Assembly: GCA_021778575.1 (NCBI GenBank)
Contig: JAJYCH010000042.1
Span: 1-13,645 of the forward strand
Source: Planctomycetota bacterium
GTDB taxonomy: Bacteria > Planctomycetota > Planctomycetia > Isosphaerales > Isosphaeraceae
Reading direction: 5' to 3'
Length of the DNA: 13,645 nt
The notes under the pieces were generated by a model. That model was given only the letters and a program-made list of their open reading frames with translations, was not told where the DNA came from and ran no database searches. Position 1 is the stretch's first letter, and the number at the start of each line of letters is the position of its first letter. The position numbers were made by a program, and so were the translations under genes. Below are positions 1-13,591 of the stretch, one piece after another.

Positions 1-172
1 CGGTCAACTTCCGGGAGGGCATGGCCGCGAAGAAGCCCTTGGCCCCTTCAATGATCTTGAGGTCACGAATGACGAACATGTCGTCAAACGTGATGCTACA
101 GAACGCCTGGAGGCGCTCGTTGCTGCCCGAGTTGTCTTCCATGAGCTTGATGCGAACTTCGGTGATTTCCAC
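1..172 (-). CDS. spoVG: SpoVG family septation/regulatory protein (3' end cut off by window edge)
   Basis: The visible 57 residues begin [16 protein letters not shown] (GTG start, read as Met) and continue through a core containing [20 protein letters not shown] and then [16 protein letters not shown]. This matches the SpoVG family signature: an N-terminal E-(V/I)-T-(D/E)-V-R strand, an 'F-V-(I/V)-x-D-(I/L)-(R/K)-(I/V)-I-(D/E)-G' strand pair, and the 'FxAMPSRK' segment. The GTG at 172-170 is chosen because AAAGGAGT lies at 187-180, seven bases upstream, a strong ribosome-binding site, and because the family normally starts at this residue. SpoVG is a small site-specific nucleic-acid-binding regulator, best known from Bacillus, Staphylococcus and Borrelia. 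The gene lies 35 bases downstream of ispE on the same strand, so the two are probably co-transcribed. The remaining C-terminal part lies beyond position 1. I am sure of the family; its role in this organism is not shown by the sequence. Confidence 0.93.
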
Positions 173-207
173 AGCCAGTACTCCTTTACGTGGCGTTCTC
201 TGTCGGC

Positions 208-1089
208 TCAAGGGTCGCAGGTGACGACCCGGACTCGTCCCAGTCCGAGCGTTGCAAGACGTCGCGCGGCATCCTCCGCCGCGTCGCGGTCGCTGGCCAG
301 GCCGAAATAGGCTGAGCCGCTTCCGCTCATCAAGGACCCGTCCAGCGACGGGTCGGCAAGCAGGGCCAAGGCATCCCGGAGCGCCCCGAGGGACGGCTCC
401 AGAGATTCCGCGACCGGTTGGAGTCGGTTGAACAGGTGGCGTCCCAGCGATCCGAGATCGCTCGCTTCGAGAGCTTCGAGAATCGGGCCGATCGACCGGG
501 GCGCTTCGGGAACAACCAGGTTCCGATAAACGTCCGCCGTCGAAACCCCGACCGGCGGGCAGATCAAGACAAAGTGCAGCGGCTCGAAGATCGGCCAGGC
601 CTCGACGATCTCGCCTCGACCCCGACAGACAGCGCACGGGCCTTGCCGGAAGAAGGCGACATCGGAGCCGACCGTCGCGGCGACCTGATCCAGCAGTTCG
701 GGGCTCGCGTTCAGGTTCCACAGTCGATTCAGACCTTCAAGCGTGGCGGCGGCGTCGGACGAACCCCCCGCCAGGCCCGCTTGAGCGGGAATAACCTTCT
801 TGAGTGCGATCCTCGACCCTCGGTTGGATCTTGTTTCGGCTTTGAGACGCTCGGCGGCTTTGACCACCAGATTTTCCGGGCCGGTCGGCAAGCTCGGGTC
901 GTCGCAAACCAGGGTGATCTGGCCCGAGGGGTCGTCGTGAAACGTCAGTGTATCGTGGAGGTCGACCGTCACCATCAGCGATTCGAGGTCGTGATAGCCG
1001 TCGGCCCGCTTCCCGGTGATTTCCAGGAACAGGTTAAGCTTCGCCGGGGCGAGGATCTCGACGCCATTCTCGAACGGTCGAACGATCAT
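208..1089 (-). CDS. ispE: 4-diphosphocytidyl-2-C-methyl-D-erythritol kinase IspE
   Basis: A GHMP-family kinase of 293 residues, a usual length for IspE. It phosphorylates the 2-hydroxyl of CDP-methylerythritol with ATP in the cytoplasmic MEP (non-mevalonate) isoprenoid pathway. Motif 1 is [19 protein letters not shown], with K17 at the place of the catalytic lysine. The glycine-rich ATP loop [15 protein letters not shown] lies at about 101-115. GSDVAFF at about 141-147 supplies the catalytic aspartate (D143), and [12 protein letters not shown] near the C terminus is GHMP motif 3. The frame stays open upstream to 1275, but I start at ATG 1089 because the homologous part ([10 protein letters not shown]) begins a few residues later and the upstream extension is Arg/Ser-rich with no family similarity. 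No strong Shine-Dalgarno sequence precedes this ATG. The gene probably leads an operon with spoVG. The function is secure; the exact start is less so. Confidence 0.95.
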
Positions 1090-1509
1090 CGTGCCGGTTT
1101 CCCGGTCGAGTGATTTCGAGCGTGGTCGAGTGGCGGAGACATATCGCACGGCAGACCCATTTCCTCGTCCTGAGCAGCGTGGTTCGACGTCCGTGAAGGA
1201 GGTCGATTCCGGGGCGACTCCATTCGCTCCGTGCCTTGTGCGGGGGACATTATCCCGATCACCAAATCCTCGCAAGCCGAAAAGTTCTCAAGTCGAAACC
1301 TAACGTCGGACGACGACGCCGGTTTTGTCGAATCTACAAAAATCAGTGTGCCCAGATTTCCGGGAGGTGCCATACTGACTCGTCGCGAGGCTACGCCGCA
1401 ACCAATCTGTCGGTTGTGTCGAGGCGTCGAAGACGCATCGACAGAGTAAACGTCTCCGCATTCGGTGCGTCTTCGACGCCTCGACACACCCGACAAGAAA
1501 TTCACAGGG
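1090..1509. other. Gene-free stretch between ispE and the TPR-like gene
   Basis: I see no credible gene in these 420 bases; the open frames crossing it on both strands are Arg/Ser/Pro-rich and match nothing I recognise. The part near 1260-1370 is poorer in GC than its surroundings. On the minus strand a GATAAT word (complement of 1249-1254) could be the -10 of an ispE promoter, but no convincing -35 lies at the right distance. The leftward end holds the long hairpin repeat described separately. Confidence 0.6.
1408..1495. repeat. Long near-perfect inverted repeat (hairpin, arms about 30 bp)
   Basis: The left arm at 1415-1437 (begins TGTGTCGAGG, ends AAGACGCA) is the exact reverse complement of 1466-1488 over 23 bp. 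After one mismatch (1414/1489) pairing continues for six more pairs outward (1408-1413 with 1490-1495). Inward, 1438-1441 can pair with 1462-1465 including one G-U, leaving a loop of about 20 bases. It ends 15 bases past the stop codon of the minus-strand TPR-like gene, so it could end that transcript or protect its 3' end. No T-run follows on either side, so it is not a classical intrinsic terminator. It shares no sequence with the 138-bp repeats elsewhere in the window. Confidence 0.85.
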
Positions 1510-2085
1510 TCAGCGAGGACCCAGCGGTCTCGACCACAAAGCCCGCTTCCGCTTCAACTCGGTGGCGAGGTCGGCGGCTCCCAGAGCTTCGTGACAGGTG
1601 ATCAGCCCGTCCATCGCGTCGTAGAGCGGTCGGTTCGAGGGATGCTCTTTGGGCAACCGGGCGGCGAAGTCGCGGGGTATGGCTTTTTCGGCCAGTTCGT
1701 AGGCGTAGCCGAAGTGCCCTCGGGCCAGACTCGGGTCCTTGAATTCTTCGAGCGCGATCCGGCCCAGCGCGACGTGGACCCAGATGTTGTCGCCGCACCC
1801 CTGGAGGGCAAAGCGCAAGGCGTCGCGGGCGGCTTCGGGATCGCCGGCCTTGCGGAGTTCGATCCCTTCCTCGTAGTCGAGCTCCATCTCGCGGACACAC
1901 TTGGGGTGGATCAGAACGAAGTCGTCGCCGCCGAGCCGCTTCAGGCCCAGGCCTCCCCGATACGACGCTCCACCTCGGGCGCCGCTGGCGTTCGGTTTTC
2001 GCCCGGGGGCGGCCGGTCGGCCCCCTCGCCCCTTGGCGGGTGGTCGGTTCTCGCCGCGATTCCCCCCGCCCCCTCGTTCGATCAT
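1510..2085 (-). CDS. Small TPR-like protein with a Gly/Arg/Pro-rich N-terminal tail
   Basis: The predicted protein has 191 residues. The first 50 or so are low-complexity and basic (MIERGGGGNRGENRPPAKGR, then RGG/GRGG-like runs), probably disordered. From HPKCVREMELDYEEGIELRK onward it is a helical repeat. 'DYEEGIELRKAGDPEAARDALRFALQGC' followed by 'IWVHVALGRIALEEFKDPSLARGHFGYAYELA' has the alternating small/large spacing of tetratricopeptide units, and a further helical pair (RPLYDAMDGLITCHEALGAADLATEL) closes the protein. I start at ATG 2085 rather than the in-frame ATG at 2115 because GGGAAGGG lies eight bases upstream of 2085 and nothing similar precedes 2115. No signal peptide or membrane segment is visible, so it is probably cytoplasmic. 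TPR units usually mediate protein contacts, and RGG-type tails often bind RNA, but neither is shown here. It stands alone between a hairpin repeat and the degraded zone. I do not recognise a named family. Confidence 0.75.
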   Translation of the reverse strand: MIERGGGGNRGENRPPAKGRGGRPAAPGRKPNASGARGGASYRGGLGLKRLGGDDFVLIHPKCVREMELDYEEGIELRKAGDPEAARDALRFALQGCGDNIWVHVALGRIALEEFKDPSLARGHFGYAYELAEKAIPRDFAARLPKEHPSNRPLYDAMDGLITCHEALGAADLATELKRKRALWSRPLGPR

Positions 2086-2262
2086 GAGCCAAACCCTTCC
2101 CAAAGCCGGAACCATCGGTTGTTAGACACTCCAGAATAGCCACGCTCTCGACAGTTTGCGATCCTCGGAACGTCCGAATTCTCGAATCAAAGCCACTGCG
2201 TACGGCCAGATTTTCTTGTGGTCTTTGGTCTACCTGTCCTGGAGCTTCCGACGAAGTCTCTA
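2086..2262. other. Non-coding leader and degraded sequence, includes one outer-arm relic
   Basis: No gene is supported here. The part near 2086-2150 must hold the leader and promoter of the minus-strand TPR-like gene. A TATTCT word on the minus strand (complement of about 2134-2139) is a possible -10, but I find no matching -35. At 2210-2226 the sequence ATTTTCTTGTGGTCTTT matches 15 of 17 bases of the outer inverted repeat that flanks repeat copy B, so a relic of the same outer element sits left of copy A. Confidence 0.5.
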
Positions 2263-2400
2263 TCTGGAGTGCGAGAGCTTGCTCTCGCTCTGGCGACCGG
2301 AGCTTGCTCCGAGCCCGAGTGACATGGCCAACGGTCTCTGGACCAGGACCGTGGAGCAAGCTCCCCGAAGCAGACCGAGAGCAAGCTCTCGCACTCCAGA
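2263..2400. repeat. 138-bp nested palindromic repeat, copy A
   Basis: Bounded by perfect 25-bp terminal inverted repeats (2263-2287, starting TCTGGAGTGCGAGAGC, and its reverse complement at 2376-2400). Each terminal arm itself contains a small palindrome of the form GAGAGC-TT-GCTCTC. Two inner palindromes of the form GGAGC-TT/AA-GCTCC lie inside them, so the element can fold into one long stem or four small hairpins. Hand alignment with copy B (5521-5658) shows nine mismatches and no gaps over 138 bp, about 93 percent identity, with the terminal arms identical. It encodes no transposase, so it is a non-autonomous, MITE- or REP-like element by structure. Its length is a multiple of three, and five of the six frames carry no stop codon. 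Confidence 0.9.
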
Positions 2401-2680
2401 GAATCCATCCGCGAGGACGATCTCCGGCGAGATTCCGATCATTTGCTACCGGGCGGTGCGGCTCACGGTCCAGGGGCGCGACTGTGTCGTCGACGTCTCG
2501 GGAATCGCCGACCATCTCCCCGTGATTATTGGCCAGATCCCCCTCGAATCGATGGATTGGGTCGTCGACATGCGAGGGCAACGGCTCATCGGCAACCCCG
2601 AACATGGAGGCGAAGACATGGTTGATATCTTCTGCGCGGAAATCGAGACGAACCCAAAGCATGCCTGCAATCACGTTTGA
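2401..2680 (+). pseudogene. C-terminal remnant of a retropepsin-like aspartic protease
   Basis: From codon 2444 the plus-strand frame reads CYRAVRLTVQGRDCVVDVSG, then IADHLPVIIGQIPLESMDWV, then VDMRGQRLIGNPEHGGEDMV, ending at TGA 2678-2680. The 'P-V-(I/L)-(I/L)-G-x-I-P-L-E-x-(L/M)-D-(W/F)-V-V-D' segment with 'RLIGNPEHGGE' is what I recognise as the C-terminal half of short bacterial retroviral-type (clan AA) aspartic proteases found in planctomycetes. The N-terminal half, which should carry the catalytic Asp-(Thr/Ser)-Gly triad and flap, is missing. The frame runs upstream straight into repeat copy A, and nothing protease-like is visible beyond it. I infer a gene decapitated by insertion or by deletion at the repeat. 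The frame formally stays open from about 2156 through the repeat, so a chimeric protein is possible, but it would have no active site. The family call rests on memory of the motif, not on a search. Confidence 0.65.
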
Positions 2681-2993
2681 TTCCATGGGAAAAATCACTG
2701 GTTTTTGGGATAAGTAGCCGCTTGCGGTGGAATTTCTCGCTGGTTAGACTCTGCGTCCGGGTCGTTTGAGAGGCGAGCGGACGTCGATGTGTGACGCCTT
2801 CTGGATTTTTTGGTTGAATCCATTTTTGGCGTCGTCATTCTTTGAGCGTTTTCGAACGTATTTACGACTCCTTCAAATCCGCGACCCCATTTCGTTGAGC
2901 GTCAGGTCTTTGGTCGATCGCCACAGGGCTCAAGGTCGAACCCCTCCCCCTGCGATCGCTTACCAGAGATTCCCATCCGGAAAGGATTCCTCC
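2681..2993. other. Gene-free leader upstream of the SPFH gene
   Basis: These 313 bases are richer in A/T than the neighbouring genes, notably 2800-2870. TTGCGG, 17 bases, then TAGACT in about 2722-2751 is a possible but weak plus-strand promoter, which would give the SPFH gene a leader of over 200 bases. The SPFH frame stays open back to 2766 and would include a short hydrophobic stretch (CDAFWIFWLNPFLASSFF). I treat this as chance because the composition is not codon-like and the Shine-Dalgarno sequence sits just before 2994. Confidence 0.45.
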
Positions 2994-3752
2994 ATGAGCC
3001 GTCACGACTCGTTGATCATCAAGGATACCCATCGGGGGTTGCTCTACGAGGATGGGATGTTTCGGGAGATCTTGCCGGCGGGCCGGTTCCAGATTCCTCG
3101 GCCGCCTTCAAGGCTGGCCGCGTTCTTCGGAGCGAAGGCCCCGAAGGTCGAGGTGATCCTGGTCGATATTCGCGGGCGCGACCGGACCATCGTGGTTCAG
3201 GACGTGCTGACGGCCGACGGCGTGACGATCTCGTCGAGCTTCGTCGTCCAGTTCCGGGTCGAAGACCCGGTCGCCGCCTTGCACGAGGTCAAGAGCTTCG
3301 AGGAACGACTCTACGCCGAGGCGCAGACCGCCGCCCGACGGATTCTCCGGGGGATGAGCCTGGAAGAAGTCCTGATCGCTCGCGACGAGATCGGCGAGGA
3401 ACTGCTCCGCCAGGTCCAGGAGTCGGCGACGACTTACGGTCTGAAAGTCTCCGGGATCGACTTCAAGGATCTGACGATTCCCGAGAAGCTCCAGAAGATC
3501 ATGAACCAGGTGGTCCTCTCGCGTCGGCTCCGCGCGACCGAAGCCGACGAAAGCGATGAGGACGAGGACTCCGACCTGATCTTCGCGAACGCCCGGTTCG
3601 ATCGAGCCCACAACGAGCCAGCCGACGACGTTGACGACGACCATTCGACTCGCCCCGAGAAACTGGCGATCCGTCCGCACTCCCTCGACTCGCGAAGCCA
3701 GGGAATTCCATCGAGCAACCTCGATTTCACGCTCCGTCGCCACCAGTCCTGA
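2994..3752 (+). CDS. SPFH/band 7 (slipin/prohibitin-like) domain protein
   Basis: A 252-residue protein. Residues about 1-165 form an SPFH (band 7) domain: DTHRGLLYEDGMFREILPAG is the usual 'rGlv...dGrf...L.pGr' opening, then VEVILVDIRGRDRTIVVQDV and LTADGVTISSSFVVQFRVED (the 'TaDgV.i...v.v.yrV.DP' core), and the helical part AQTAARRILRGMSLEEVLIA to the GLKVSGIDFKDLTIPEKLQK end. The C-terminal tail is acidic (EADESDEDEDSD at about 183-194) and then polar, probably disordered. Slipins usually carry an N-terminal membrane segment; with this start there is none, so attachment to a membrane is uncertain. ATG 2994 is preceded by AAAGGA with seven bases between. It is monocistronic, with a terminator right behind it. 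SPFH proteins assemble into membrane-associated oligomers that organise membranes or proteases; the specific role here is unknown. No partner NfeD or protease gene is adjacent. Confidence 0.88.
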   Translation: MSRHDSLIIKDTHRGLLYEDGMFREILPAGRFQIPRPPSRLAAFFGAKAPKVEVILVDIRGRDRTIVVQDVLTADGVTISSSFVVQFRVEDPVAALHEVKSFEERLYAEAQTAARRILRGMSLEEVLIARDEIGEELLRQVQESATTYGLKVSGIDFKDLTIPEKLQKIMNQVVLSRRLRATEADESDEDEDSDLIFANARFDRAHNEPADDVDDDHSTRPEKLAIRPHSLDSRSQGIPSSNLDFTLRRHQS

Positions 3753-3783
3753 GCGGTGCCGGCAATCGAGACCGTCGCAACGC

Positions 3784-3821
3784 AAACCTCGGACTGATCT
3801 CGCGATCAGCCCGAGGTTTTT
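3784..3821 (+). terminator. Rho-independent terminator of the SPFH gene
   Basis: AAACCTCGGACTGATC (3784-3799) pairs with GATCAGCCCGAGGTTT (3804-3819) around a TCGC loop, with 15 pairs and one A/C mismatch. It ends in TTTTT at 3817-3821. It lies 31 bases after the SPFH stop codon and just before a consensus -35 box for the kinase gene, so it separates the two units. Confidence 0.85.
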
Positions 3822-3837
3822 GTGTCGACGGCTTGTT

Positions 3838-3865
3838 TTGACAATGTCGCCCCTTGTTCTACGGT
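3838..3865 (+). promoter_or_regulatory. Candidate sigma-70 promoter of the Ser/Thr kinase gene
   Basis: A perfect TTGACA at 3838-3843 is followed after 16 bases by TACGGT (3860-3865), which is only a half match to TATAAT. The position suits it: after the terminator and about 60 bases before the kinase start. The -35 is good, the -10 weak, so the call is tentative. Confidence 0.4.
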
Positions 3866-3923
3866 TGCTTCGGGAGACCCAGGGTAGGCCCGGCGAACCG
3901 TCAGTCATCCAGGGAGCGGCACA

Positions 3924-5468
3924 ATGGGACTTCCAGTCCGAACGGTTTGCGTCGCTTGTCTCCAGAGTCTCGAACTCTCCAGCGGCGGCGACTTTTCTCA
4001 CCAGGCGAGCTGTCCGTATTGCGGATGTCCGGTCGAGCCGGCGCGCTCGGACCGGGACCTTTCGACCAGTGAGGGGTTCGTCTCGCCGCCACCGCTCTTG
4101 CCCGACGCCCAGACTCCTCGAATCGATTCGCCGGCGATCGAGACGCCCGGCCAGGTCGGCCGGTTCATTGTCCGCGAGCCGCTGGGCGAAGGGGGTTACG
4201 GCCGGGTCTTCCGGGCGTTCGACCCGCACCTCGAACGCGACGTCGCGCTCAAGGTGCTCAAGCCCAACCGGCTCAATAACAAGGCGCTCGAACGCTTCTT
4301 GCGCGAGGCCCGAGCGGCGGCCAGGCTCGACCATCCCCACATCGTTGGACTTCATGACGCCGGTTGCGACGAGGGCCGCTGCTGGATCGCCTATCAACTC
4401 GTCTCCGGTCAGACCCTCTCGGTCATCCGCGATCGCGATCGGCCGACCATCGAATACTCGGTCCGGATCATTCGCGACCTCGCCCTGGCGCTGGATCATG
4501 CGCATCAGCGGGGAGTTTTTCACCGCGACCTGAAGCCGGCGAACATCCTGATCGACGACTCCGGACGGGCTCGATTGACCGACTTCGGCCTCGCCCGACG
4601 GATCGACCTCGACTCCGAACTGACGATGGAAGGGACCGTTCTCGGCACACCGATGTACATGAGCCCCGAGGCCGCCGCCGGTCGGGCTCACGAGGCCGAT
4701 GCCCGGAGCGATGTCTACAGCCTGGGCGTGATTCTCTACGAGCTGATCTGCGGCAAACGACCGTCGGAGGTTCCCAGCGGCGCGCCGCTCTGGCGATCCA
4801 GCCGGATCGCCATTCCACCCACTCCGCGGTCGGTCGACCGGGCGGTCCCGCTCGAACTCGACCGGATCTGCATGAAGGCACTCGCCTTCGACCCCGACGC
4901 CCGATACCCCACCGCCGTCGCGCTCGCCATGTCGCTGAATCGCTACCTCGGTCGGCAACAGCCCGAGTCGTCACCAGCGAACCGTTCGCGCCTGGTCGGC
5001 AAACGGCCATCCATCGCCCTGGCCAGTCTCTGCGCAATTCTCTGCCTGGCCTTCGGGTTCCAGTTGCTCACTCGCAATCCGGACCAGGCCGGAAACCGGC
5101 TCGCGACCGGCGAAAGCCCCTCGAAACCGACCGCGAACCGGATGGAACCGAAGCGAGCCGAGGAACAGACCGTCGTGGTCGCTCCGAAGCCCGAACCGGT
5201 TCCGACCGAGACGAAGCGAACCGTTCTGAAACCGGTCGGACCCACGGAAACGCCGGTTCCCGACTCATGGAATCTGCCGGTTTTCTTCGTACAGAAGACG
5301 ACCGACCGGAAAATCCACCTGGAGAAATGCTCGCATCTTCGCAAGATCCCCGAATCGCGAATGGTTCCGGTCGGAGACGCCCGGACCGCCGTGGCCCGGG
5401 GTTACGTTCCATGCAAGACCTGCCTCTTACCGCTGAGTCTGGAACTCGACAAGCATCCAAGCCCATGA
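3924..5468 (+). CDS. Membrane Ser/Thr protein kinase with N-terminal zinc ribbon and C-terminal Ada-like metal-binding module
   Basis: A protein of 514 residues with a PknB-type (Hanks) kinase core. C9-x2-C12 and C30-x2-C33 form a zinc ribbon. The kinase runs from about 80 to 345: glycine loop LGEGGYGRVF (87-96), Lys in ALKVLK (K110), alpha-C Glu E128, catalytic HRDLKPANIL (H200, D202, N207), DFG at D220, and MSPE for the APE motif. All key residues are present, so it should be active on cytoplasmic Ser/Thr substrates. One membrane helix lies at about 363-382 (SIALASLCAILCLAFGFQLL). A Pro/Glu/Lys-rich linker follows, then the end (FFVQKTTDRKIHLEKCSHLR to GYVPCKTC), with H465, C469, C497 and C500. 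That end follows the 'H-x3-C ... A-x2-GY-x-P-C-x2-C' pattern of Ada-type metal-binding modules. The start at ATG 3924 has AGGGAGC at 3911-3917. The extracytoplasmic module could be a sensor; that is inference. The gene stands alone with its own promoter. Confidence 0.93.
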   Translation: MGLPVRTVCVACLQSLELSSGGDFSHQASCPYCGCPVEPARSDRDLSTSEGFVSPPPLLPDAQTPRIDSPAIETPGQVGRFIVREPLGEGGYGRVFRAFDPHLERDVALKVLKPNRLNNKALERFLREARAAARLDHPHIVGLHDAGCDEGRCWIAYQLVSGQTLSVIRDRDRPTIEYSVRIIRDLALALDHAHQRGVFHRDLKPANILIDDSGRARLTDFGLARRIDLDSELTMEGTVLGTPMYMSPEAAAGRAHEADARSDVYSLGVILYELICGKRPSEVPSGAPLWRSSRIAIPPTPRSVDRAVPLELDRICMKALAFDPDARYPTAVALAMSLNRYLGRQQPESSPANRSRLVGKRPSIALASLCAILCLAFGFQLLTRNPDQAGNRLATGESPSKPTANRMEPKRAEEQTVVVAPKPEPVPTETKRTVLKPVGPTETPVPDSWNLPVFFVQKTTDRKIHLEKCSHLRKIPESRMVPVGDARTAVARGYVPCKTCLLPLSLELDKHPSP

Positions 5469-5496
5469 ATCGGTTGTACCGGTCGGGTGTGCCCGG

Positions 5497-5710
5497 ATTT
5501 TCTGGTGGTCTCTTATCGAATCTGGAGTGCGAGAGCTTGCTCTCGCTCTGGCGACCGGAGCTTGCTCCGAGCCCGGGTGACTCGGCCAACGGTTTCCGGG
5601 CCAGGACCGTGGAGCAAGCTCCACGAAGCAAAGCGAGAGCAAGCTCTCGCACTCCAGAGGGAGTTTTCGCGATGCCCGAGTCCAGGATCGACCAGAGACC
5701 ACCAGAAAAT
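5497..5710. repeat. Outer inverted repeat pair enclosing repeat copy B
   Basis: ATTTTCTGGTGGTCTCT at 5497-5513 is the exact reverse complement of 5694-5710 (17 bp). Weaker pairing with small gaps reaches outward to about 5488 and 5718. The left arm begins 28 bases after the kinase stop. The right arm with its inner flank (5659-5710), read as reverse complement, resembles the left flank of copy A (2210-2262), sharing TCCTGGA and the spacing to the core. The outer arms therefore belong to a recurring element, not to chance. Confidence 0.7.
5521..5658. repeat. 138-bp nested palindromic repeat, copy B
   Basis: Same length and orientation as copy A (2263-2400), with nine substitutions and no gaps by hand alignment. 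The 25-bp terminal inverted repeats (5521-5545 and 5634-5658) are unchanged between copies, while substitutions fall in the interior. This fits selection on, or recent spread of, the palindromic ends. Again no coding capacity for a transposase is present, and one plus frame carries a TGA while the others cross it open. Confidence 0.9.
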
Positions 5711-5749
5711 TGGGACACCCCTTGCCCCCCGTCGGCCGAATCGCCTCGC

Positions 5750-5778
5750 TTGACCGGATCGGTTTCGCTCTCAATACT
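5750..5778 (+). promoter_or_regulatory. Candidate promoter of the phoR-type kinase gene
   Basis: TTGACC (5750-5755) and AATACT (5773-5778) are separated by 17 bases, matching the consensus at five and four of six positions. It lies between the right arm of the repeat and the start codon at 5836, giving a leader of about 50 bases. I see no Pho-box-like direct repeat here. Confidence 0.42.
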
Positions 5779-5835
5779 ATTGGACTCCACGGGCTTGATC
5801 GGTTTCCGAGTCGGTTCGCAAGAGGTGGCCGGAGG

Positions 5836-7137
5836 ATGGGCGGCTGGACCTGGGGAATCTCCGGGGCGATTGTCGCCTTGATCGTGGCGGGCTGGGCGTC
5901 GCGGGTCCTCGCGCATCGTCGGTCGGTGATTCGCGAGCTGGAGCGTGGTCTCGTCGCCCTGGGCGAAGGGCGTCCGGTCCGGCCGACAAACACGCGGGTT
6001 TCCGGCTCGCTCGGGCGGCTCGCCCGGACGTTCGACGCCCTGATTCCCGAACATCAGGCGAAGGTCGAGCGGCTGAGCAGCGACATCGAGCAACTTCGGG
6101 TTGTTCTGGGCGGGATGGCCGAGGGGGTGATCGCCATCGACGCCAGGCGCCGACTCCTGTTCGCCAACAAAAGCGCGGATTTCCTGTTTGGACTGGGGCC
6201 TCAAGCCGTCGGCCGGCTCGTCCCCGAACTGATCCGGAGCCCAAGGTTCCAGGAAGCGGTCGACGCCACGCTCACCGGTCCCGAGACCTATCGCGGCGAG
6301 ATCGTCGTGCCTAGCCGGGACGTCATGCCCCGGTCGCTCCCTCGGGTGCTGGCCGTCCACGGCTCGCTCTTGCCGGGCTCGCCGCCGACCGGAGCGGTCC
6401 TGGTCTTCCACGACGTCACCGAACTCCGTCGGCTCGAACGGATGCGTCAAGACTTCGTCGCCAACGTCTCGCACGAACTCAAGACGCCGCTGGCCTCGAT
6501 CAAGGCGTATACCGAGACCCTGCTCGACTGGGCCTTGCACGACGAAGCGGTCAACGTCCGGTTCCTCAATCGGATCGAGGAGCAGGCCGATCGGCTCAAC
6601 CAGTTGATCCTCGACCTTCTGAGCCTGGCCCGGCTGGAGTCGGGGCACGAGGTATTCCATCACGGTCCGCTGGCCGTCTCGGCCGTGGTCGAGACCTGTA
6701 TCGAGACCCATGTCGGCCGGGCCGAGGGAAAGGAACTGGACCTGAAACTCGACCTTGGCCCGGTCGACGAGTCAATTCTCGTCGTCGCCGACGAGGAGGC
6801 GGTCCACCAGATACTTGACAACCTGATCGATAACGCGATCAAGTACACACCGGCCGGCGGCTGGGTTCACGTGATCTGCCAGACGACCGAAGCGGCGGTG
6901 GTCGTCGCCGTCGCCGATTCGGGGATCGGCATCCCTCGCGACGACCTTCCTCGGGTCTTTGAACGGTTCTATCGGGTCGATAAAGCCCGGAGTCGCGAGA
7001 TGGGCGGGACCGGCCTGGGCCTGTCGATCGTCAAGCACCTGATCCAGTCGATCGGCGGCGAGATCACCGTCGATAGCCGTCTGGGCGAAGGGACCCGGTT
7101 CACGGTCTTGCTCCCCCGGTATCAAACAAAGTCGTGA
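5836..7137 (+). CDS. phoR: PhoR-type sensor histidine kinase of the phosphate regulon
   Basis: A 433-residue membrane histidine kinase. One membrane helix at about 5-25 (TWGISGAIVALIVAGWASRVL) anchors it with no sizeable extracytoplasmic domain. A linker helix region is followed by a PAS domain at about 85-200 (LGGMAEGVIAIDARRRLLFA to HDVTELRRLERMRQD). The HisKA domain has the phospho-acceptor H213 in FVANVSHELKTPLASIKAY. The ATPase domain shows the N box (ILDNLIDNAIKYTP), G1 (DSGIGIPRDDLPRVF, then FERFYRVDKARSR) and G2 (GGTGLGLSIVKHL). A single helix, PAS and HisKA is the layout of PhoR, which reads phosphate status through the Pst transporter and phosphorylates PhoB. The next genes being pstSCAB and a PhoB-type regulator supports this strongly. 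The frame is open back to 5710, but ATG 5836 begins the membrane helix directly and has AGAGG at 5821-5825. GGAGG also touches the ATG, too close to serve. Confidence 0.9.
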   Translation: MGGWTWGISGAIVALIVAGWASRVLAHRRSVIRELERGLVALGEGRPVRPTNTRVSGSLGRLARTFDALIPEHQAKVERLSSDIEQLRVVLGGMAEGVIAIDARRRLLFANKSADFLFGLGPQAVGRLVPELIRSPRFQEAVDATLTGPETYRGEIVVPSRDVMPRSLPRVLAVHGSLLPGSPPTGAVLVFHDVTELRRLERMRQDFVANVSHELKTPLASIKAYTETLLDWALHDEAVNVRFLNRIEEQADRLNQLILDLLSLARLESGHEVFHHGPLAVSAVVETCIETHVGRAEGKELDLKLDLGPVDESILVVADEEAVHQILDNLIDNAIKYTPAGGWVHVICQTTEAAVVVAVADSGIGIPRDDLPRVFERFYRVDKARSREMGGTGLGLSIVKHLIQSIGGEITVDSRLGEGTRFTVLLPRYQTKS

Positions 7138-7169
7138 ATCGCGCGGGATTCTCGACGAAAACCATCAGG

Positions 7170-7202
7170 CTTCACGAAAACCTCATAATCTCTTGGTAGA
7201 TT
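7170..7202 (+). promoter_or_regulatory. Candidate Pho box and -10 element upstream of pstS
   Basis: Two 11-base units, CTTCACGAAAA (7170-7180) and CCTCATAATCT (7181-7191), stand in tandem. They resemble the CTGTCATAAAA-type 11-base direct repeats bound by PhoB. TAGATT (7197-7202) follows nine bases after the seven-base core of the second unit, close to the arrangement of PhoB-activated promoters, where the box replaces the -35. The PhoB-type gene in this locus makes this the natural site, but the consensus for this phylum is not known to me. Confidence 0.5.
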
Positions 7203-7273
7203 AGGTGTTCTCCCTGCCATTGACCTGTACTGGCTGACGATTGCCGGCTCCTTTTTCCTCCGAGATTGAACTC

Positions 7274-8278
7274 ATGGCCGTCACCGCTCGATATCGTGCT
7301 GGCTTTTCGAAGATGATGGTCGCGCTGGCTCTGCTGCCGCTCGCCTCGGTCGTCCCTGGTTGTGGCGATCCCGCACAAACTCCGTCGAATCCGAATGGCG
7401 AGTCAGCCGCGGATACCACGGCGGTCGTCGTCGACGGCTCAAGCACGGTCTTCCGGATCAGCAAGGCCGCCCAGGAAGAGTTTTCCAAGATCGAACACGA
7501 TGTCGACGTCGTGGTCGGCAACTCGGGAACCTCCGGCGGCTTCGCCAAGTACCTCCAGAACGAGGTCGACATCGTCGATGCCTCGCGCCCGGCCAAGGCC
7601 GACGAAGAAACCAAGGCCAACGCTCAGGGGATTGCCTGGGTCCGGTTCCTGGTTGGTTACGACGGGATCACCGTCGTCGTGAACCCCAAGAACGACTTCG
7701 TGAAGGAGCTGAGCGTCGAGCAACTCAAGAAGCTCTGGGAGCCCGACAGCAAGGTCAAGACCTGGAAAGACCTCGACGACTCGTGGCCGGCTCGCGAGAT
7801 CAAGCTCTACAGTCCCGACGACAAGTCGGGAACCTTCGAGTTCTTCACCGAGGCGATCGTCGGCAAGGCCAAGAGCCAGCGCAAGGACGTCCAGCCCAGC
7901 TCGGACGACAATACCCTGGTTCGCGGTGTCGCTGGAGATCCCGACGGGATCGGCTACTTCGGCTACGCCTACTACAAGGCGAACGTCTCCGACTTGAAGG
8001 CACTCGCGGTCAAGAAAGACAAGGATGCCCCGGCGATCTTCCCTTCGCCCGAGACGATCCTCGACAAAACTTACGCCCCCCTGTCGCGACCGCTCTTTAT
8101 CTACGTGAAAAAGTCGGCCTATCGCCGCAAGGGGGTCGCGGCCTTCGTCAAGTACTATCTCGAGCACATCAGCGACCTGGCGATCAAGGCCAAATACGTC
8201 TCGCCGACCGACGAAGATCAAAAGGCGAACAAGGCGACCCTCGAAACCCTGGGCGGCGCGAAGTCCCCGGCCGCCTGA
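7274..8278 (+). CDS. pstS: Phosphate ABC transporter, substrate-binding lipoprotein PstS
   Basis: A 334-residue extracytoplasmic binding protein. The signal sequence has a basic start, a hydrophobic core (MMVALALLPLASVV) and a Cys at residue 30 in VVPGC. This is a lipobox with an unusual proline at -2, so lipid anchoring is likely but not certain. Mature-domain motifs are those of PstS/PBP-like phosphate receptors: DGSSTVFRIS, VVVGNSGTSGGFAKYLQNEV, DIVDASRPAKADE, WVRFLVGYDGITVVVNP, YSPDDKSGTFEFFTE and GIGYFGYAYY, which supply the Ser/Thr/Gly/Asp ligands for phosphate. The family's usual length is matched. I take ATG 7274 because it gives a proper signal peptide; the frame is open to a TTG at 7241. 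The Shine-Dalgarno sequence is weak. It lies 136 bases behind phoR with its own Pho-box-like promoter and leads the pstSCAB operon. It captures inorganic phosphate and hands it to PstC/PstA. Confidence 0.95.
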   Translation: MAVTARYRAGFSKMMVALALLPLASVVPGCGDPAQTPSNPNGESAADTTAVVVDGSSTVFRISKAAQEEFSKIEHDVDVVVGNSGTSGGFAKYLQNEVDIVDASRPAKADEETKANAQGIAWVRFLVGYDGITVVVNPKNDFVKELSVEQLKKLWEPDSKVKTWKDLDDSWPAREIKLYSPDDKSGTFEFFTEAIVGKAKSQRKDVQPSSDDNTLVRGVAGDPDGIGYFGYAYYKANVSDLKALAVKKDKDAPAIFPSPETILDKTYAPLSRPLFIYVKKSAYRRKGVAAFVKYYLEHISDLAIKAKYVSPTDEDQKANKATLETLGGAKSPAA

Positions 8279-8357
8279 AGGGTAGACTCGCGGATCAGAG
8301 ATCGCGGAATCCAACTCCGTTATCCCCCCATTCTTCTCCTCTGAAAGCCGTTTGACC

Positions 8358-9320
8358 GTGAGCAAGAGTCTGCTGGATGACATGGCCAACGCTCCTCCGC
8401 CACTCTGGGCCGGCGCAACGCCGCTGCGCTCGGTCCAGGAGGGGCTGGTCATGGCGTTCCTGTTCGGTTGCGCGGCCATCACGGTCATCACGACGGCGGG
8501 GATCGTTCTGGTTCTCGGGTCGGAGACGATCCACTTCTTTCGGGCGACCGGCGAGTCGATTCTCGAATTTATCTGCGGAACCCAGCTCGAACCGGAAGCG
8601 GTTCCGCCTCGGTTCGGAATCCTCCCGCTGATCTGGGGGACGATGCTGATCGCGATCGGGTCGTCGCTGATCGCCTTGCCGATCGGCTTGCTCAGCGCGA
8701 TCTATCTGAGCGAATACGCACCGAGAAAACTCCGGGCGGTCCTCAAGCCAACCCTGGAACTGCTCGCGGGGATTCCGACGATCGTCTATGGTTATCTGGC
8801 GCTACTGCTGGTCACGCCGGCGTTGAAGGGGATTCTCGAACCGATCGGACTTCAGGTCGAGACGTTCAACGCACTGAGCGCCTGCATTGTCGTGGGGGTG
8901 ATGATCATCCCGATGGTCTCCTCACTCAGCGAGGACGTGCTCTCGGCGGTCCCTCGAGGTCTCAGAGAGGCGGCTTACGGGCTCGGGGCGACCAAGTTCG
9001 AGGTCTCGACGCGGATTGTCCTGCCGGCCGGGCTTTCGGGAGTGGTCTCGTCGTTCATCCTGGCGATCAGCCGGGCGATCGGCGAGACGATGGCGGTCGT
9101 CCTCGCCGCCGGGCTCCGGCCCCAACTGACCTTCAACCCGCTGACCTCGATCGAGACGATGACCGCGTACATTGTCGGAGTGACCAGCGGCGAGGCCTCG
9201 GCCGGATCGCCCGAATACCTGTCGCTGTTCGCCGTCGGAATGGCCTTGTTCGTGATCACCCTGACGCTGAACGTGATCTCTGGGTTCGTTTTGCGCCGCT
9301 ATCGCGAGGTCTACCAGTGA
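8358..9320 (+). CDS. pstC: Phosphate ABC transporter permease PstC
   Basis: About 320 residues with six predicted membrane helices, the first at about 30-50 (VMAFLFGCAAITVITTAGIV). FGILPLIWGTMLIAIGSSLI and ELLAGIPTIVYGYLALLLVT are typical PstC segments. The cytoplasmic EAA loop, LREAAYGLGATKFEVSTRIV-LP at about 202-223, is where the PstB ATPase docks, and ISRAIGETMAVVLAAG is the conserved stretch after it. It forms the membrane channel with PstA. The start is uncertain: I chose GTG 8358; TTG 8352 and ATG 8382 are in frame, and none has a good Shine-Dalgarno sequence. It lies 79 bases after pstS and overlaps pstA by four bases (GTGA), a sign of coupled translation. Confidence 0.94.
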   Translation: MSKSLLDDMANAPPPLWAGATPLRSVQEGLVMAFLFGCAAITVITTAGIVLVLGSETIHFFRATGESILEFICGTQLEPEAVPPRFGILPLIWGTMLIAIGSSLIALPIGLLSAIYLSEYAPRKLRAVLKPTLELLAGIPTIVYGYLALLLVTPALKGILEPIGLQVETFNALSACIVVGVMIIPMVSSLSEDVLSAVPRGLREAAYGLGATKFEVSTRIVLPAGLSGVVSSFILAISRAIGETMAVVLAAGLRPQLTFNPLTSIETMTAYIVGVTSGEASAGSPEYLSLFAVGMALFVITLTLNVISGFVLRRYREVYQ

Positions 9321-10243
9321 CCCCCGCGCCGCTCTCGCCCAGTTATGAGCCGGAACGACAGTCCCGGCGGATTCTCGGCCCGATTTTCGGCCTGGCCTGC
9401 CTGGTCGCGACCTCGACCGGCGTCGTGGTCCTGTCGATCCTGCTCGGCGCCGTCGTCGCGGCGGTGATCCGCGGCTCGCAAGGGGGATCGGTCCTGGGGA
9501 CGCTGGGGCACCTGCTGACCTCGATGCAGTCCTCGACTCCCGAGTCGGCTGGGTTCCGGGCCGGGGTGGTGGGAAGCCTCTGGCTCCTGGGCTTGGTGGC
9601 GGCGTTCTCGATCCCGGTTGGGATCGGAGCGGCGGTGTTTCTCGAAGAATATGTCTCGGCTGGTCGAATCCGGCGGATTATCCAGCTCAATATCGCCAAC
9701 CTGGCCGGTGTTCCCTCGATCGTCTACGGGATTCTCGGCCTGGCTCTGTTCGTCCGGGCGTTCGGCTACAAGAACCTGGCGTTTGGCCCGACGCTCTGGG
9801 CCGGTGGTCTGACGCTGGGGCTCTTGATCCTGCCGGTGATCGTGATCGCGACGCAGGAAGCGCTCCGGACGGTCCCGAATTCGCTCCGACAGGCGGCGAT
9901 GGCGCTGGGGGCCAGCCGCTGGCAGGTGGTTCGCGACCACGTTCTGCCTTCGGCCTTACCCGGCATCCTGACCGGCGTCATCCTGGCCCTGTCGCGAGCG
10001 ATCGGCGAGACTGCGCCGCTCTTGATGGTCGGGGCGGCCGGTTCGATCTTGCGATTGCCGAAAGGACCGTCGAGCCGCTATACCGCTTTACCGGTCGAGA
10101 TTTACAACTACGCCAAAGAACCCGACCCGAAATACCAGGCGGTCGCCGCCGGCGGGATCTTGCTCCTGCTCGCTCTCTTGCTGACCATGAACGCCACGGC
10201 GATCGTGATCCGGAACCGTTATGCCCGTTCGTCCCGAGGCTGA
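9317..10243 (+). CDS. pstA: Phosphate ABC transporter permease PstA
   Basis: A 308-residue second permease of the Pst channel. Hydrophobic segments include [40 protein letters not shown] and a final [37 protein letters not shown] plus [20 protein letters not shown] is the PstA-type core. The EAA loop [22 protein letters not shown] lies at about 190-211, followed by [17 protein letters not shown]. The GTG start at 9317 lies inside the pstC stop region (GTGA overlap), which fixes it well. An upstream open stretch in the same frame is only the shadow of pstC. It partners PstC and receives PstB at its EAA loop. Confidence 0.95.
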
Positions 10244-10250
10244 CCCGACC

Positions 10251-11090
10251 ATGAGCGTCTCCGAAACCGTCGCCGCCGCCGCCGCGCCCGCCGGCCCTTC
10301 GCCGGGCGATCCCTCGATCCTCACGACCGAGCAACTCTCGGTCTGGTACGGGACGTCGCTGGCGCTCAAGGAGATCACCATCGCCATCCCCCGCAACCGG
10401 ATCACCGCGATGATCGGTCCGTCGGGCTGTGGCAAGAGCACGTTGCTTCGCTGCTTCAACCGGATGAACGACCTCGTGGCCGGAGCCCGGATGGAAGGTC
10501 GAATCACCTTCGACGGCGACGACATCGCCGCCCAGGGGGTCGACGCCGTCGCGCTCCGTCGGCGGATCGGGATGGTCTTCCAGAAGCCGAACCCGTTTCC
10601 GAAAAGCATCTACCAGAACGTCGCCTGGGGAGCACGGATCAACGGCTACAAAGGGGACATGGACGACCTGGTCGAGAAGTCGCTCCGCCGCGCCGCGCTC
10701 TGGGACGAGGTGAAGGGGAAGCTCCACCGGTCGGGCCTGGAGCTTTCCGGCGGTCAGCAACAGCGGCTCTGCATCGCCCGGACTCTGGCCGTCGAGCCCG
10801 AGGTGATCCTGATGGACGAACCCTGCTCGGCGCTCGACCCGATCTCGACCGCCCGGGTCGAAGACCTGATGGACGACCTGAAAGCCGATTACACGATCGT
10901 CATCGTCACCCACAACATGCAGCAAGCCCGCCGGGTCAGCGACATGACCGCCTGCATGATGCTCGACGAAGCCTCGAACGGCAACACCCAGCGCACCGGG
11001 ATCGTCGTCGAGTTCAGCCCGACCGAGATTCTCTTCACCAAACCAAACGACCCCCGGACCGAGGCGTACATCACCGGGCGGATCGGCTGA
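10251..11090 (+). CDS. pstB: Phosphate ABC transporter ATP-binding protein PstB
   Basis: About 279 residues, the ATPase that drives phosphate import. Walker [10 protein letters not shown] lies at 56-64, the Q-loop in [20 protein letters not shown] (the 'QKPNPFP.SIY.NV' stretch is diagnostic for PstB), the ABC signature [13 protein letters not shown] at about 165-177, Walker [14 protein letters not shown], and the switch histidine in [34 protein letters not shown] is the usual PstB ending. ATG 10251 has GAGG 11 bases upstream; ATG 10221 in frame would add ten residues and overlap pstA by 23 bases, and either is possible. The Ala/Pro-rich first 30 residues are an extension not needed for function. 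The last gene of the pst operon here; no phoU follows. Confidence 0.95.
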
Positions 11091-11100
11091 GGTCTTCACA

Positions 11101-11154
11101 ATTCTCCGCAATGTCATCGTTCCTTCATAAATCAATCTTGTCCGTTGTTATAAT
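11101..11154 (+). promoter_or_regulatory. phoB promoter: extended -10 with Pho-box-like direct repeats
   Basis: TGTTATAAT at 11146-11154 is a perfect extended -10. Upstream, TGTCATCGTTC (11112-11122) and CTTCATAAATC (11123-11133) form 11-base direct repeats of the Pho-box type, with a poorer third unit at 11101-11111. The spacing from the last core to the -10 is about 19 bases, longer than the classic PhoB layout, so autoregulation is plausible but less secure than the promoter itself. Confidence 0.55.
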
Positions 11155-11216
11155 GGAAGAGAGAAACGCGAAGTTCGCGCGTGAGGTGTCCTCTCTCTCA
11201 GACGGGCGATTCACCG

Positions 11217-11924
11217 ATGTCCAAGCCGAAGATCCTGGTCGTTGAAGACGAACGTTCCCTGGTCGAGGTTCTGTCTTATAACCTGGAGCGTGAAGGATTT
11301 GACGTGCTGGTCGCCCACGATGGGGCGGACGGTCTTCGTCAGGCTCAGATCAAGCTACCCGACCTGGTGGTTCTCGACCTGATGCTGCCGCTCAAGGGGG
11401 GGCTGGAGGTCTGTCGCGAGCTTCGGATGGGGACGCGAACCCGCGAGATCCCGATCATCATGGTCACCGCCAAGGCGGAAGAAACCGACCAGCTCGTCGG
11501 TTTCGCGACCGGTGCCGACGATTACGTCACCAAGCCGTATTCGATCAAGGTCCTGGTCCAGCGAATCAAGAAGGAGCTGCGCCGTCGTCAGCTCCAGGAC
11601 GAACCGAACACGTCGAGCATCTACGAGAGCCAGGGGGTTGTGATCGACCGGCATCGGCACCGGGCCTTGTACAACGGCGAGGAGTTAACGTTGACGCCGA
11701 CCGAGTTTCGCCTGCTCGAAGCCCTGCTTCGACAGGCGGGCCGGGCGTTCACCCGGCACGAATTGATGGACTCGGCCATTGGCGAGGACGCGGTGGTCCT
11801 GGAACGGACGATCGACGTTCATGTCAAGAGCCTCCGGAAGAAGCTGGGGGATGCCGCCGACCTTATCGAGACGGTCCGCGGCGTCGGATACCGATTCCGG
11901 GAGCCGCGACTGGTCGAGTCTTGA
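11217..11924 (+). CDS. phoB: PhoB-type (OmpR family) response regulator
   Basis: A 235-residue two-domain regulator. The receiver domain covers about 1-125: the acidic pair E10/D11 in KILVVEDE, phospho-acceptor D54 in VVLDLMLP, T84 in IMVTAKAEE, and K106 in DDYVTKPYS. The C-terminal winged helix (about 135-232) shows LTLTPTEFRLLEALLRQAGR, then FTRHELMDSAIGEDAVVLER, RTIDVHVKSLRKKLGD and IETVRGVGYRF, the standard OmpR/PhoB DNA-binding signature. Its partner kinase should be the PhoR-type protein at the other end of the locus. ATG 11217 is preferred because homology begins at once; GTG 11181 is in frame, and neither has a clear Shine-Dalgarno sequence. It has its own promoter 126 bases or less after pstB. 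The last 62 bases overlap the 3' end of csrA on the other strand. Confidence 0.92.
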   Translation: MSKPKILVVEDERSLVEVLSYNLEREGFDVLVAHDGADGLRQAQIKLPDLVVLDLMLPLKGGLEVCRELRMGTRTREIPIIMVTAKAEETDQLVGFATGADDYVTKPYSIKVLVQRIKKELRRRQLQDEPNTSSIYESQGVVIDRHRHRALYNGEELTLTPTEFRLLEALLRQAGRAFTRHELMDSAIGEDAVVLERTIDVHVKSLRKKLGDAADLIETVRGVGYRFREPRLVES

Positions 11925-12138
11925 ACGACAGGGGCATCGGCGGCGGGTTCGCCGGCTCCGGCTGGTGAACGCAGGGGGCGGGATCGCAACGATCGAGCAA
12001 CTCGGCGCGGACGACCGCCACGTCGCGCGGGGCGTCGATCCCGAGCCGGACCTGCCCCCCTTCGAGTCTCACGACGGTCACACAGACATCGTTGCCGATG
12101 TAGAGCTTCTCCATGAGCTTGCGCGTCAACACCAGCAT
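11863..12138 (-). CDS. csrA: Carbon storage regulator CsrA with extended C-terminal tail
   Basis: The first 48 residues, MLVLTRKLMEKLYIGNDVCV then TVVRLEGGQVRLGIDAPRDV and AVVRAELL, are a clear CsrA: L4, R6, the EKLxIG turn, 'VRLGIDAPRDV' and R44, the residues that contact GGA motifs in mRNA. CsrA is a small dimer that blocks or protects mRNAs at GGA-containing sites near ribosome-binding sites. ATG 12138 has GAGG about ten bases upstream. The protein is 91 residues, against about 60-75 in many bacteria. The extra C-terminal part is Pro/Arg-rich and the final 20 residues are encoded antisense to the end of phoB (62-bp overlap). This tail may result from a lost stop codon. The frame is open far upstream, but nothing before 12138 resembles a protein family. 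The family call is firm; the tail's meaning is not known. Confidence 0.93.
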   Translation of the reverse strand: MLVLTRKLMEKLYIGNDVCVTVVRLEGGQVRLGIDAPRDVAVVRAELLDRCDPAPCVHQPEPANPPPMPLSFKTRPVAAPGIGIRRRGPSR

Positions 12139-12571
12139 GTCGTTCGTCCTCGCTTGGGCGGGTCTCTGGTCCTGAGAACCGATCTCCGGATTGGTCATCA
12201 AAACACCGGCGGTCGGTCGGGGTCTCCTGAAGAACCCTAGGTCACGACTCCCCGGGTCGGAGCGATTCTTGACCGGCCTCGACCGAACTTCTGGTTGACC
12301 CAACGTCCTCGGATGAACAGGATCGGCCCTTCCCGCTGGTGCGACGGGACAACTTTCAGGCCCGGATGGACGATCGGGCTTGGACAATCGCCTCGATTTC
12401 TGGCAGCATGGTTCGATCACCTGTCTCTTCTGAAGGGTCTGGGGGTCGAGCGCGGGGCGCTCGGAGGTTTTCTTGAGGAACTTCGTCGGCTGGGCCTGGC
12501 CCATTCGAGCCGAGGACGAGCTTCTCAAGTGAAGCGTCGCGCGAGACCGATCGATTCGAGGCGAGGATAAG
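12139..12571. other. Divergent intergenic region between csrA and trxB
   Basis: In these 433 bases I find no convincing gene. Open frames exist on both strands but are Arg/Ser/Pro-rich and without recognisable motifs. A compact hairpin, CGAGCGC-GGG-GCGCTCG (12447-12463), is followed by GAGGTTTTCTT on the plus strand and could be a weak terminator of an unannotated short transcript, or chance. Promoters for csrA (minus) and trxB (plus) must lie here. TTGACC occurs twice on the plus strand (near 12270 and 12294), but no good -10 follows either. Confidence 0.5.
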
Positions 12572-13591
12572 ATGTCGCATTCCGCAGTGATCGTGATCGG
12601 CTCGGGGTCGGCGGGCCTGACAGCCGCCCTCTATACGGCCCGCGCGAATTTGAACCCGCTCGTCTTCGAGGGGAAAGAACCCGGCGGCCAGTTGACCTGG
12701 ACCACCGAGGTTGAAAATTTTCCGGGGTTCCCCGAAGGAATTCTCGGGCCTGAACTGATGGAACGGATCAAGCAGCAAGCCCAACGGTTCGGCGCCGACC
12801 TCCGGATGGAAAAAGTCGTCAAGGTCGACCTCTCGAAGCGTCCGTTCACGGTCACGACCAACGACGATCCGTTCAATCTCGAAGGAAATCTGACCGAACA
12901 TACGGCCGACGCCCTGATCCTGGCCAGCGGAGCGACCGCCAAGACGCTCGGTCTGCCCGACGAGATGACGTTCATGGGCTACGGCCTGGGAACCTGCGCC
13001 ACCTGCGATGGCGCGCTCTACAAAGGACGGAAAGTGGCCGTCGTCGGCGGGGGCGACACGGCGGTCGAGGAAGCGAGCTTCCTGACCCGTCATGCCAGCC
13101 AGGTCACCCTGATCCACCGCCGCGACTCGCTCCGGGCGTCGCGAATCATGCAAGATCGGTTGTTCGCCAACCCCAAGATCGATTACGCCTGGAACTCGGC
13201 GCCGATCGAATACCTGGGCGTGAAGGAAGGGCATAAGTCATTGACCGGCGTGCGGTTGCGCTCGACCGTCGATGGCTCGACCCGCGACCTGATGGTCGAC
13301 GGACTGTTCCTGGCGATCGGCCACTCGCCCAACACCGAGGCATTCGAGGGCCAGTTGGCGATGACGCCGGAGGGGTACATCCTGAACCGGACCGCGCTGT
13401 CGTGGCACGGGATCGAAGCTCCCGTCGGCCTCCGTGATTCGATGCTCAACTACGGGACGGCGACCAGTGTCGAAGGGGTCTTCGCCGCCGGCGACGTGGT
13501 CGATACGCACTATCGTCAGGCGATCACTGCGGCCGGCAGTGGTTGCGCCGCGGCCATCGATTGCGAAAAATGGCTCGAATCGCTCCATTGA
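12572..13591 (+). CDS. trxB: Thioredoxin reductase (NADPH)
   Basis: A 339-residue low-molecular-weight flavoprotein disulfide reductase that passes electrons from NADPH through FAD to thioredoxin in the cytoplasm. The FAD fold opens with VIVIGSGSAGLTAALYTARA, then GGQLTWTTEVENFPGFPEGI, both typical of TrxB. The redox-active pair C142-A-T-C145 sits in GTCATCDGALYKG. The NADPH fold is VAVVGGGDTAVEEASFLTRH (155-174) with HRRDSLRAS for 2'-phosphate recognition. The end, FAAGDVVDTHYRQAITAAGS (304-323) and GCAAAIDCEKWL, closes the FAD site. It is somewhat longer than the common 310-320. An insert of about 20 residues (LSWHGIEAPVGLRDSMLNYG) lies before the ATSVEGVFAAGD motif. ATG 12572 is preceded by GCGAGGATAAG, a good ribosome-binding site. 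It stands alone on its strand after a divergent gap with csrA. Confidence 0.95.
   Translation: MSHSAVIVIGSGSAGLTAALYTARANLNPLVFEGKEPGGQLTWTTEVENFPGFPEGILGPELMERIKQQAQRFGADLRMEKVVKVDLSKRPFTVTTNDDPFNLEGNLTEHTADALILASGATAKTLGLPDEMTFMGYGLGTCATCDGALYKGRKVAVVGGGDTAVEEASFLTRHASQVTLIHRRDSLRASRIMQDRLFANPKIDYAWNSAPIEYLGVKEGHKSLTGVRLRSTVDGSTRDLMVDGLFLAIGHSPNTEAFEGQLAMTPEGYILNRTALSWHGIEAPVGLRDSMLNYGTATSVEGVFAAGDVVDTHYRQAITAAGSGCAAAIDCEKWLESLH

Follow-up and report, generated by a model that had tools for sequence, protein, structure and literature searches.

A 13,645-nucleotide stretch from a planctomycete of the family Isosphaeraceae (assembly GCA_021778575.1, contig JAJYCH010000042.1, positions 1 to 13,645; hereafter the window) carries two copies of a 138 bp nested palindrome, copy A at 2263-2400 and copy B at 5521-5658, both on the plus strand. 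This repeat is the core of a mobile unit of about 250 bp, a non-autonomous miniature inverted-repeat transposable element (MITE) bounded by terminal inverted repeats (TIRs). The core is probably a module resembling a REPIN, a hairpin-forming doublet of repetitive extragenic palindromes (REPs), which is carried by MITEs and whose REP-associated tyrosine transposase (RAYT) is unseen. Two points of this reading are strongly supported: the core is built as a REPIN-like module, with two inverted hairpins footed by GGAG, a second hairpin pair inside them and a variable spacer, and in other genomes GGAG hairpins of its kind bracket RAYT genes of a single clade. We do not class the core as a canonical REPIN, since it has another foot and the genome of the window showed no partner RAYT.

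An earlier note, made from the window sequence alone, had described the two 138 bp copies, their identical 25 bp arms and the confinement of substitutions to the interior. This description stands: the copies differ at 9 nucleotides, all within core positions 56-113, and the exact terminal inverted repeat is 25 bp long in copy A and 27 bp in copy B. The five open frames out of six reported for copy A are found in copy B as well, and 0.45% of 2000 shuffles of copy A reached five. Folded as single-stranded DNA, the copies gave z-scores of −11.5 (A) and −9.8 (B), with 0 of 200 shuffles folding equally well. In copy A the left REP-like unit lies at 2266-2288 on the plus strand (GGAG foot 2266-2269, hairpin 2271-2288), the inverted right unit at 2375-2397 on the minus strand, and the strandless inner palindrome GGAGCTTGCTCC at 2299-2310 with its partner at 2353-2364. 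In copy B the left unit is at 5524-5546 on the plus strand (foot 5524-5527, hairpin 5529-5546), the inverted right unit at 5633-5655 on the minus strand, and the same strandless inner palindrome at 5557-5568 with its partner at 5611-5622. The core end reads GGAG, T and GCGAGAGC-TT-GCTCTCGC, which is the form of a REP with a four-letter foot near a hairpin, and the inverted REP pair, conserved ends, variable spacer and hairpin of the REPIN layout are all present. The canonical REP foot GT[AG]G is not matched, the core foot being GGAG.

Both copies belong to a large family in the genome of the window (G000; 5.35 Mb in 883 contigs, 75% complete). Among 108 first-look candidates 40 places were scored, all with at least 87% identity, and the 24-base arm, allowing 3 mismatches, had 64 and 56 matches on the two strands where the reversed-pattern control had none; these 120 arms confirm the high copy number that had been predicted. 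In 199,207 merged bases of G000 we delimited 66 elements, of which 46 were paired and the other 20 had one recognised arm. The paired elements comprised 39 full copies, 5 of 34 bp, a single one of 114 bp and another of 360 bp; many of the single-arm elements were cut by contig ends, some having inner deletions. The true copy number in G000 is probably higher, because the repeat breaks the assembly. Contig ends were seen within core copies, for example at L138-L140 and L215-L217, and on contigs C87, C116, C175, C733 and C543 the core was shortened by deletion between the inner and outer palindrome repeats. A length divisible by three, correctly noted for copies A and B, is not kept by the family: the 39 full copies measure 137-144 bp, a multiple of three in 21 of them, and 12 are 137 bp long. 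Five frames are open in 14 and four in 20 of these 39 copies.

The flanks of the core resemble each other among copies and terminate in a 21 bp outer inverted repeat, GGGTGTNCCCNGATTTTCTGG, which had 65 and 72 matches in G000 (up to 3 mismatches; control 0). We refer to these flanks as shell 1. Both shell ends were found at 32 of the 46 paired copies, one end at 13 and none at 1. At least 7 of 8 bases agreed as an 8 bp target duplication at 14 of 47 two-ended shells, 8 of them perfectly, compared with a rate of 0.0009 when flanks were paired at random. In the 9 bp comparison at least 8 bases agreed at 6 of the 47 shells (random pairing 0), and over 6, 10, 11 or 12 bases the flanks agreed on average just as well as random ones. 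The 32 shells holding the present core (core A) included 15 with a target duplication, and 27 of them measured 244-257 bp, the remaining ones 134-238 bp. As the duplications, mostly of 8-9 bp, lie outside the outer TIRs, shell and core were inserted as one unit, and the 25 bp arms, earlier taken for the transposon ends, are not its ends. TIRs, a target duplication of fixed length and a length too short for a transposase are the properties of a MITE. The earlier view that the element has no transposase of its own and would rely on a helper in trans stands. From the form of the TIRs and the duplication, our guess is that this helper is of the DDE class. Local duplication, the fallback explanation for two neighbouring copies, is excluded by the copy number, the varied flanks and the target duplications.

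The whole element of copy B, shell 1 with the core inside, spans 236 bp at 5485-5720 on the minus strand; the shell is read on this strand because its long arm is at the right. The left outer TIR (5485-5505, plus strand) has no mismatches to the TIR pattern, the right one (5702-5720, minus strand) is shortened to CCAGAAAATTGGGACACCC, and the core runs opposite to its usual direction in the shell, as in no other of the 28 full copies having both ends. At copy A a decayed left outer TIR with 5 mismatches lies at 2198-2218 on the plus strand and the right end was not recognised.

Candidates for the parent of the shell were rejected. IS256 was rejected as parent family, as neither G000 nor the congener genome G001 (assembly 81% complete) had a PF00872 match and the transposase loci L145-L199 lacked flanking shell TIRs save for two weak distant matches. 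The insertion sequence (IS) beside a core copy on G000 contig C204 (L199, 1121-2931) has a different TIR. This IS-like segment, located between a RAYT gene and the core copy, has 29 bp inverted repeats that are 90% complementary, a split frame and a MULE match under its cut-off.

The congener G001 revealed that core and shell are separable. Its ten best full-length matches were 72-76% identical to the query, and beyond these two genomes two of 59 genomes matched, over short stretches of 27-29 bases only. Among the G001 arms listed, nearly all read GGGAGC where G000 has GAGAGC, and the partner side was changed to match. In G001 134 arms were counted and 38 copies retrieved. None of the 38 was in shell 1; 24 were in two unrelated shells and 14 were without a recognised shell. 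Shell 2 (GGGCTGRCGACCCGACACTTT) was found at both ends of 8 copies and at one end of 6, and shell 3 (AGGATCRCCSATTCAATAACTTCC) at both ends of 9 and at one end of 1, where the rates for shuffled flanks were 0.006 per flank for shell 2, 0 for shell 3 and 0.001 for shell 1. The shell-3 TIR pattern had 28 and 20 matches in G001 and none in G000. One of the nine two-ended shell-3 copies (L416) had a weak shell-2 match too, and at L424 (G001 C374, contig positions 328-708) two shell-3 elements directly adjoin each other.

Shells, for their part, hold other interiors. By short motifs, the 47 shell-1 elements of G000 were assigned to core A (32), core B (7), core D (5) and core C (2), with 1 unassigned. 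Two of them are coreless, namely L144, the unassigned one, and L120, which falls under D by the motif rule and has a perfect 8 bp target duplication. The foot of core B is GTAG, and a RAYT of G001 (L207) is bracketed by a similar hairpin. The shell-3 element L430 contains a different palindrome with a stem like that of core C of shell 1. In a further genome, G006, elements of 415-416 bp (L390, L392, L394, L395) have a variant of the shell-1 TIR around another large nested palindrome, with duplications of 9 bp at L390/L394 (one place) and 8 bp at L395.

Divergence was compared in the 27 full copies that keep both ends and the usual arrangement. Their stems had mean pairwise identities of 0.984 and 0.970, their spacer one of 0.722, their shell arms 0.704 and 0.682, and their TIRs 0.82 and 0.77; the 13 among them with a target duplication behaved alike (stems 0.98, spacer 0.69, arms 0.71 and 0.66). 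The simple case, in which the core entered old shells recently, is rejected, as divergence is as great in the spacer as in the shell and the stems alone are held. The left and right shell arms covaried (Mantel r 0.35, p 0.0002) and, judged from their sequences, have a shared history. Spacer and left arm were without measurable correlation (r 0.05, p 0.31). Copies C177 and C361 have arms that are 0.93 identical and spacers that are 0.62 identical, and such close shells with unlike spacers suggest that cores have been exchanged. Least certain is the cause of the near-identity of the stems, which conversion between copies, selection or protein recognition could each explain.

Hairpins of the core's kind are widespread. 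The pattern TGGAGTGCGNNAGCTTGCTNNCGC was found in at least 118 stretches in named genomes and in 7 in viral contigs, where about 0.5 would be expected by chance (20 fixed bases, 257 Gb, even base composition), and the titles of these stretches name Acidobacteria, Verrucomicrobia, Hydrogenedentota, Thioalkalivibrio, Planctomycetota and others. At one of them, L257 from a Chthonomonadia metagenome-assembled genome, the hairpins bracket a RAYT gene whose product scored 104.4 bits with the NCBIfam RAYT model (cut-off 80). A protein search with this RAYT matched 209 of 392 genomes of the window's phylum, and the best locus in each of the eight best genomes was inspected (L356-L363; two further strong matches in G196 were left out). 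Unlike L257, which was reached through the motif, these loci were found by protein alone, and at seven of the eight the gene is flanked on either side by GGAG hairpins. At L359 both sides display an outer hairpin, inner hairpin, spacer, inner hairpin and outer hairpin. Among the other 50 of the 58 scanned RAYT loci, L257 was the only one with two-sided GGAG, and most other two-sided cases were GTAG.

In a tree of 56 RAYTs, one clade of 10 rows (support 96/81) contained the 8 RAYTs with GGAG hairpins; two RAYTs of G000 and eight of G001 were placed outside it. The tree omits L150 and L171 (below 30 bits) of the 58 loci, as well as the genes on G000 C217 and C139 and G001 C246 and C384; its GGAG labels were set by hand from the hairpin scan, and the GTAG labels of L200, L380, L381 and L383 were given without the two-sided rule. 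A profile of five GGAG RAYTs, run over 45 genomes of the family, scored best in G020 (67.8 bits), with 48.8 in G000 and 50.5 in G001, where both best matches are genes of the GTAG type. Near a RAYT-like gene of G020 (L459) GGAGCAC hairpins are located, perhaps of a REP type that is sister to this one within the family. As for a partner within reach of the core, no RAYT bracketed by core A was found in G000 or G001. The RAYT on G000 C204 was rejected, being about 2 kb from the core copy with the L199 IS in between, and so was that on C704, whose hairpin is GTAG.

Several results weigh against a REPIN-like module carried by MITEs. At least one shell end accompanies 45 of the 46 paired G000 copies, so that movement of the core alone is not evident in this genome, and a target duplication is recognisable at neither copy A nor copy B. 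The spacer is weakly correlated with the right shell arm (r 0.20, p 0.02), as is expected where core and shell mostly travel together. The transposase gene with matching ends anticipated by the earlier note was not found, in a DDE search limited to PF00872 and a genome that is incomplete. No RAYT of the GGAG clade was seen in G000 or G001, at the completeness of these assemblies. A profile of 18 RAYTs from outside the GGAG clade found a RAYT in 1 of 87 motif loci, the scan covering 80 (L219-L298) of the at least 118 stretches and the 7 viral ones, with L299-L336 left out. A stricter motif scan of the RAYT loci L356-L385 matched 4 of 30 (L357, L358, L361, L383) and missed L356, L359, L360 and L363; as for its controls, other transposase loci totalling 168 kb gave no match and shuffled sequence gave one. 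Finally, G045 has a RAYT bracketed by GGAGTGC hairpins, yet no match to the tighter arm pattern.

The shells of G000 are intergenic. Coding sequence was called by a codon-usage score trained on the genes of the window, with a sensitivity of 0.83 and a false-positive rate of 0.13 on the window itself. Among 44 G000 shells with usable flanks, the left flank was judged coding in none, the right in 3 and both sides in none, compared with 144 of 380 control positions that were coding on both sides on one strand. The neighbouring genes of 32 assigned shells, in raw counts regardless of gap size, were 18 tandem, 13 divergent and 1 convergent. The proposed life inside genes, after the manner of Rickettsia palindromic elements (RPE), is thus not seen in G000, and it has a single counterpart in the congener, where copy L098 (C95, 1501-1624) lies in frame inside a matched kinase domain in an open reading frame of 813 aa that runs off the locus.

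The same observations bear on three other explanations. The nested palindrome might be the mere inside of a MITE family without a functional tie to a RAYT, its stems being kept since transposition or replication of the shell needs the fold. The company of core and shell at 45 of 46 paired copies in G000 speaks for this, as do the G006 elements with similar TIRs around a different nested palindrome and the stronger conservation of the stems (0.98, 0.97) compared with the TIRs (0.82, 0.77). We nevertheless regard it as unlikely, given that the G001 core occurs in two unrelated shells and, in 14 of 38 copies, in none that was recognised, that shell-1 elements exist without a core, L120 even with its perfect duplication, and that GGAG hairpins flank RAYT genes elsewhere. 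A sequence that serves the host in supercoiling, in protein binding or at mRNA ends, with selection holding the stems whatever moves the copies, would account for stems 97-98% identical amid spacer and arms at 68-72%, and for the paired changes on both stem sides by which G001 differs. The arrangement of the neighbouring genes, with a single convergent pair, is unlike that of an element at transcript ends, and host use appears distinctly improbable.

Hardly credible, in our judgement, is a free-standing mobile palindrome of the RPE kind, whose transposase reads the 25 bp arms and which is tolerated in frame in genes. The open frames of copies A and B, the one kinase-gene copy and the 14 G001 copies without a recognised shell agree with it; the outer TIRs at 45 of 46 paired copies, with the duplications outside them, the absence of all 44 shells from coding sequence and the divisibility by three of only 21 of 39 copies do not. 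RPE are likewise palindromic, of many copies and with largely open reading frames, but the G000 copies lie outside genes, and the core ends TCTGG/CCAGA, with arms beginning TCTGGAGTGC, differ from the end tetranucleotide CGTC given for RPE in a section of PMC3733652.

For the favoured reading, a REPIN-like module in MITE shells, the history may be depicted as follows. An ancestral GGAG REPIN would have been spread by its RAYT, TIR transposons would then have enclosed REPIN copies, and the matching RAYT may have been lost from the lineage or be merely unseen. Shell transposases acting in trans would now copy the compound of shell and core, so that the module persists. A wider version, to which we give somewhat less than an even chance, is that REPINs outlive or escape their RAYT as cargo of unrelated TIR transposons, with many cores in many shells, cores exchanged and stems nearly invariant, and that the GGAG-footed REPs and RAYT clade are an undescribed branch whose motif occurs in many phyla.

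The replication of REPINs is ascribed to a RAYT that their own genome encodes in one copy. In common with REPINs and their RAYTs, the core has a pair of REP-like units in inverted orientation, each with a foot of four letters, as well as conserved ends, a variable spacer, a long hairpin and many extragenic copies, and hairpins of its kind bracket one clade of RAYTs. It differs in its GGAG foot, in the two further hairpins inside, in the absence of a matching RAYT from what was seen of G000, and in copies whose bounds are TIRs and duplications belonging to a different type of transposon. Parts of PMC3116915 describe the conserved ends and variable spacer of REPINs, and their excision. Passages of PMC6006769 give the REP foot as GT[AG]G in most subclasses, CnGA in class 3 and atypical in 2.6, and a portion of PMC3733652 defines GTAG and CGTC super-families that cover planctomycetes and RPE. 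The definition of RAYTs in a section of PMC2817692 includes a GT(A/G)G head; the letters GGAG occur 16 times in that paper, in a table of it within REPs such as TGTGGGAGCGGGC. Recognition of REPs and persistence of REPINs are treated in sections of PMC8266576 and PMC8049555, respectively. As in bacterial MITEs outlined in PMC3733652, in the part available, the whole unit is short, non-autonomous and intergenic, with TIRs and target duplications; unlike them it has within it a REPIN-like module, one found in other shells too. In the available portion of a comparison of four Isosphaeraceae genomes (PMC5352709), MITE, transposase and insertion sequence are nowhere mentioned. A search of a mostly open literature listed no title about REPs with a GGAG foot or about REPINs within MITEs, which is weak evidence of novelty.

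If the reading is true, carriage by other transposons is a second way for REPINs to persist, and it could explain near-identical hairpins in genomes without a matching RAYT; a GGAG-footed branch would also be added to a field built on GTAG feet. The system is a natural test of what holds palindrome stems identical amid drifting surroundings.

The window may contain a third, decayed shell-1 element at 1344-1510 on the plus strand, with a TIR-like start at 1344-1364 (4 mismatches), an uncertain right end and an inner inverted repeat at 1408-1441 / 1462-1495. This palindrome was repeated nowhere else in the retrieved loci. A plasmid sequence search gave no match, and an Rfam search gave two matches up to E 1, both under the gathering score. 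The Rfam family AaHKsRNA41 matched window positions 1338-1506 below threshold, with an E-value of 0.079.

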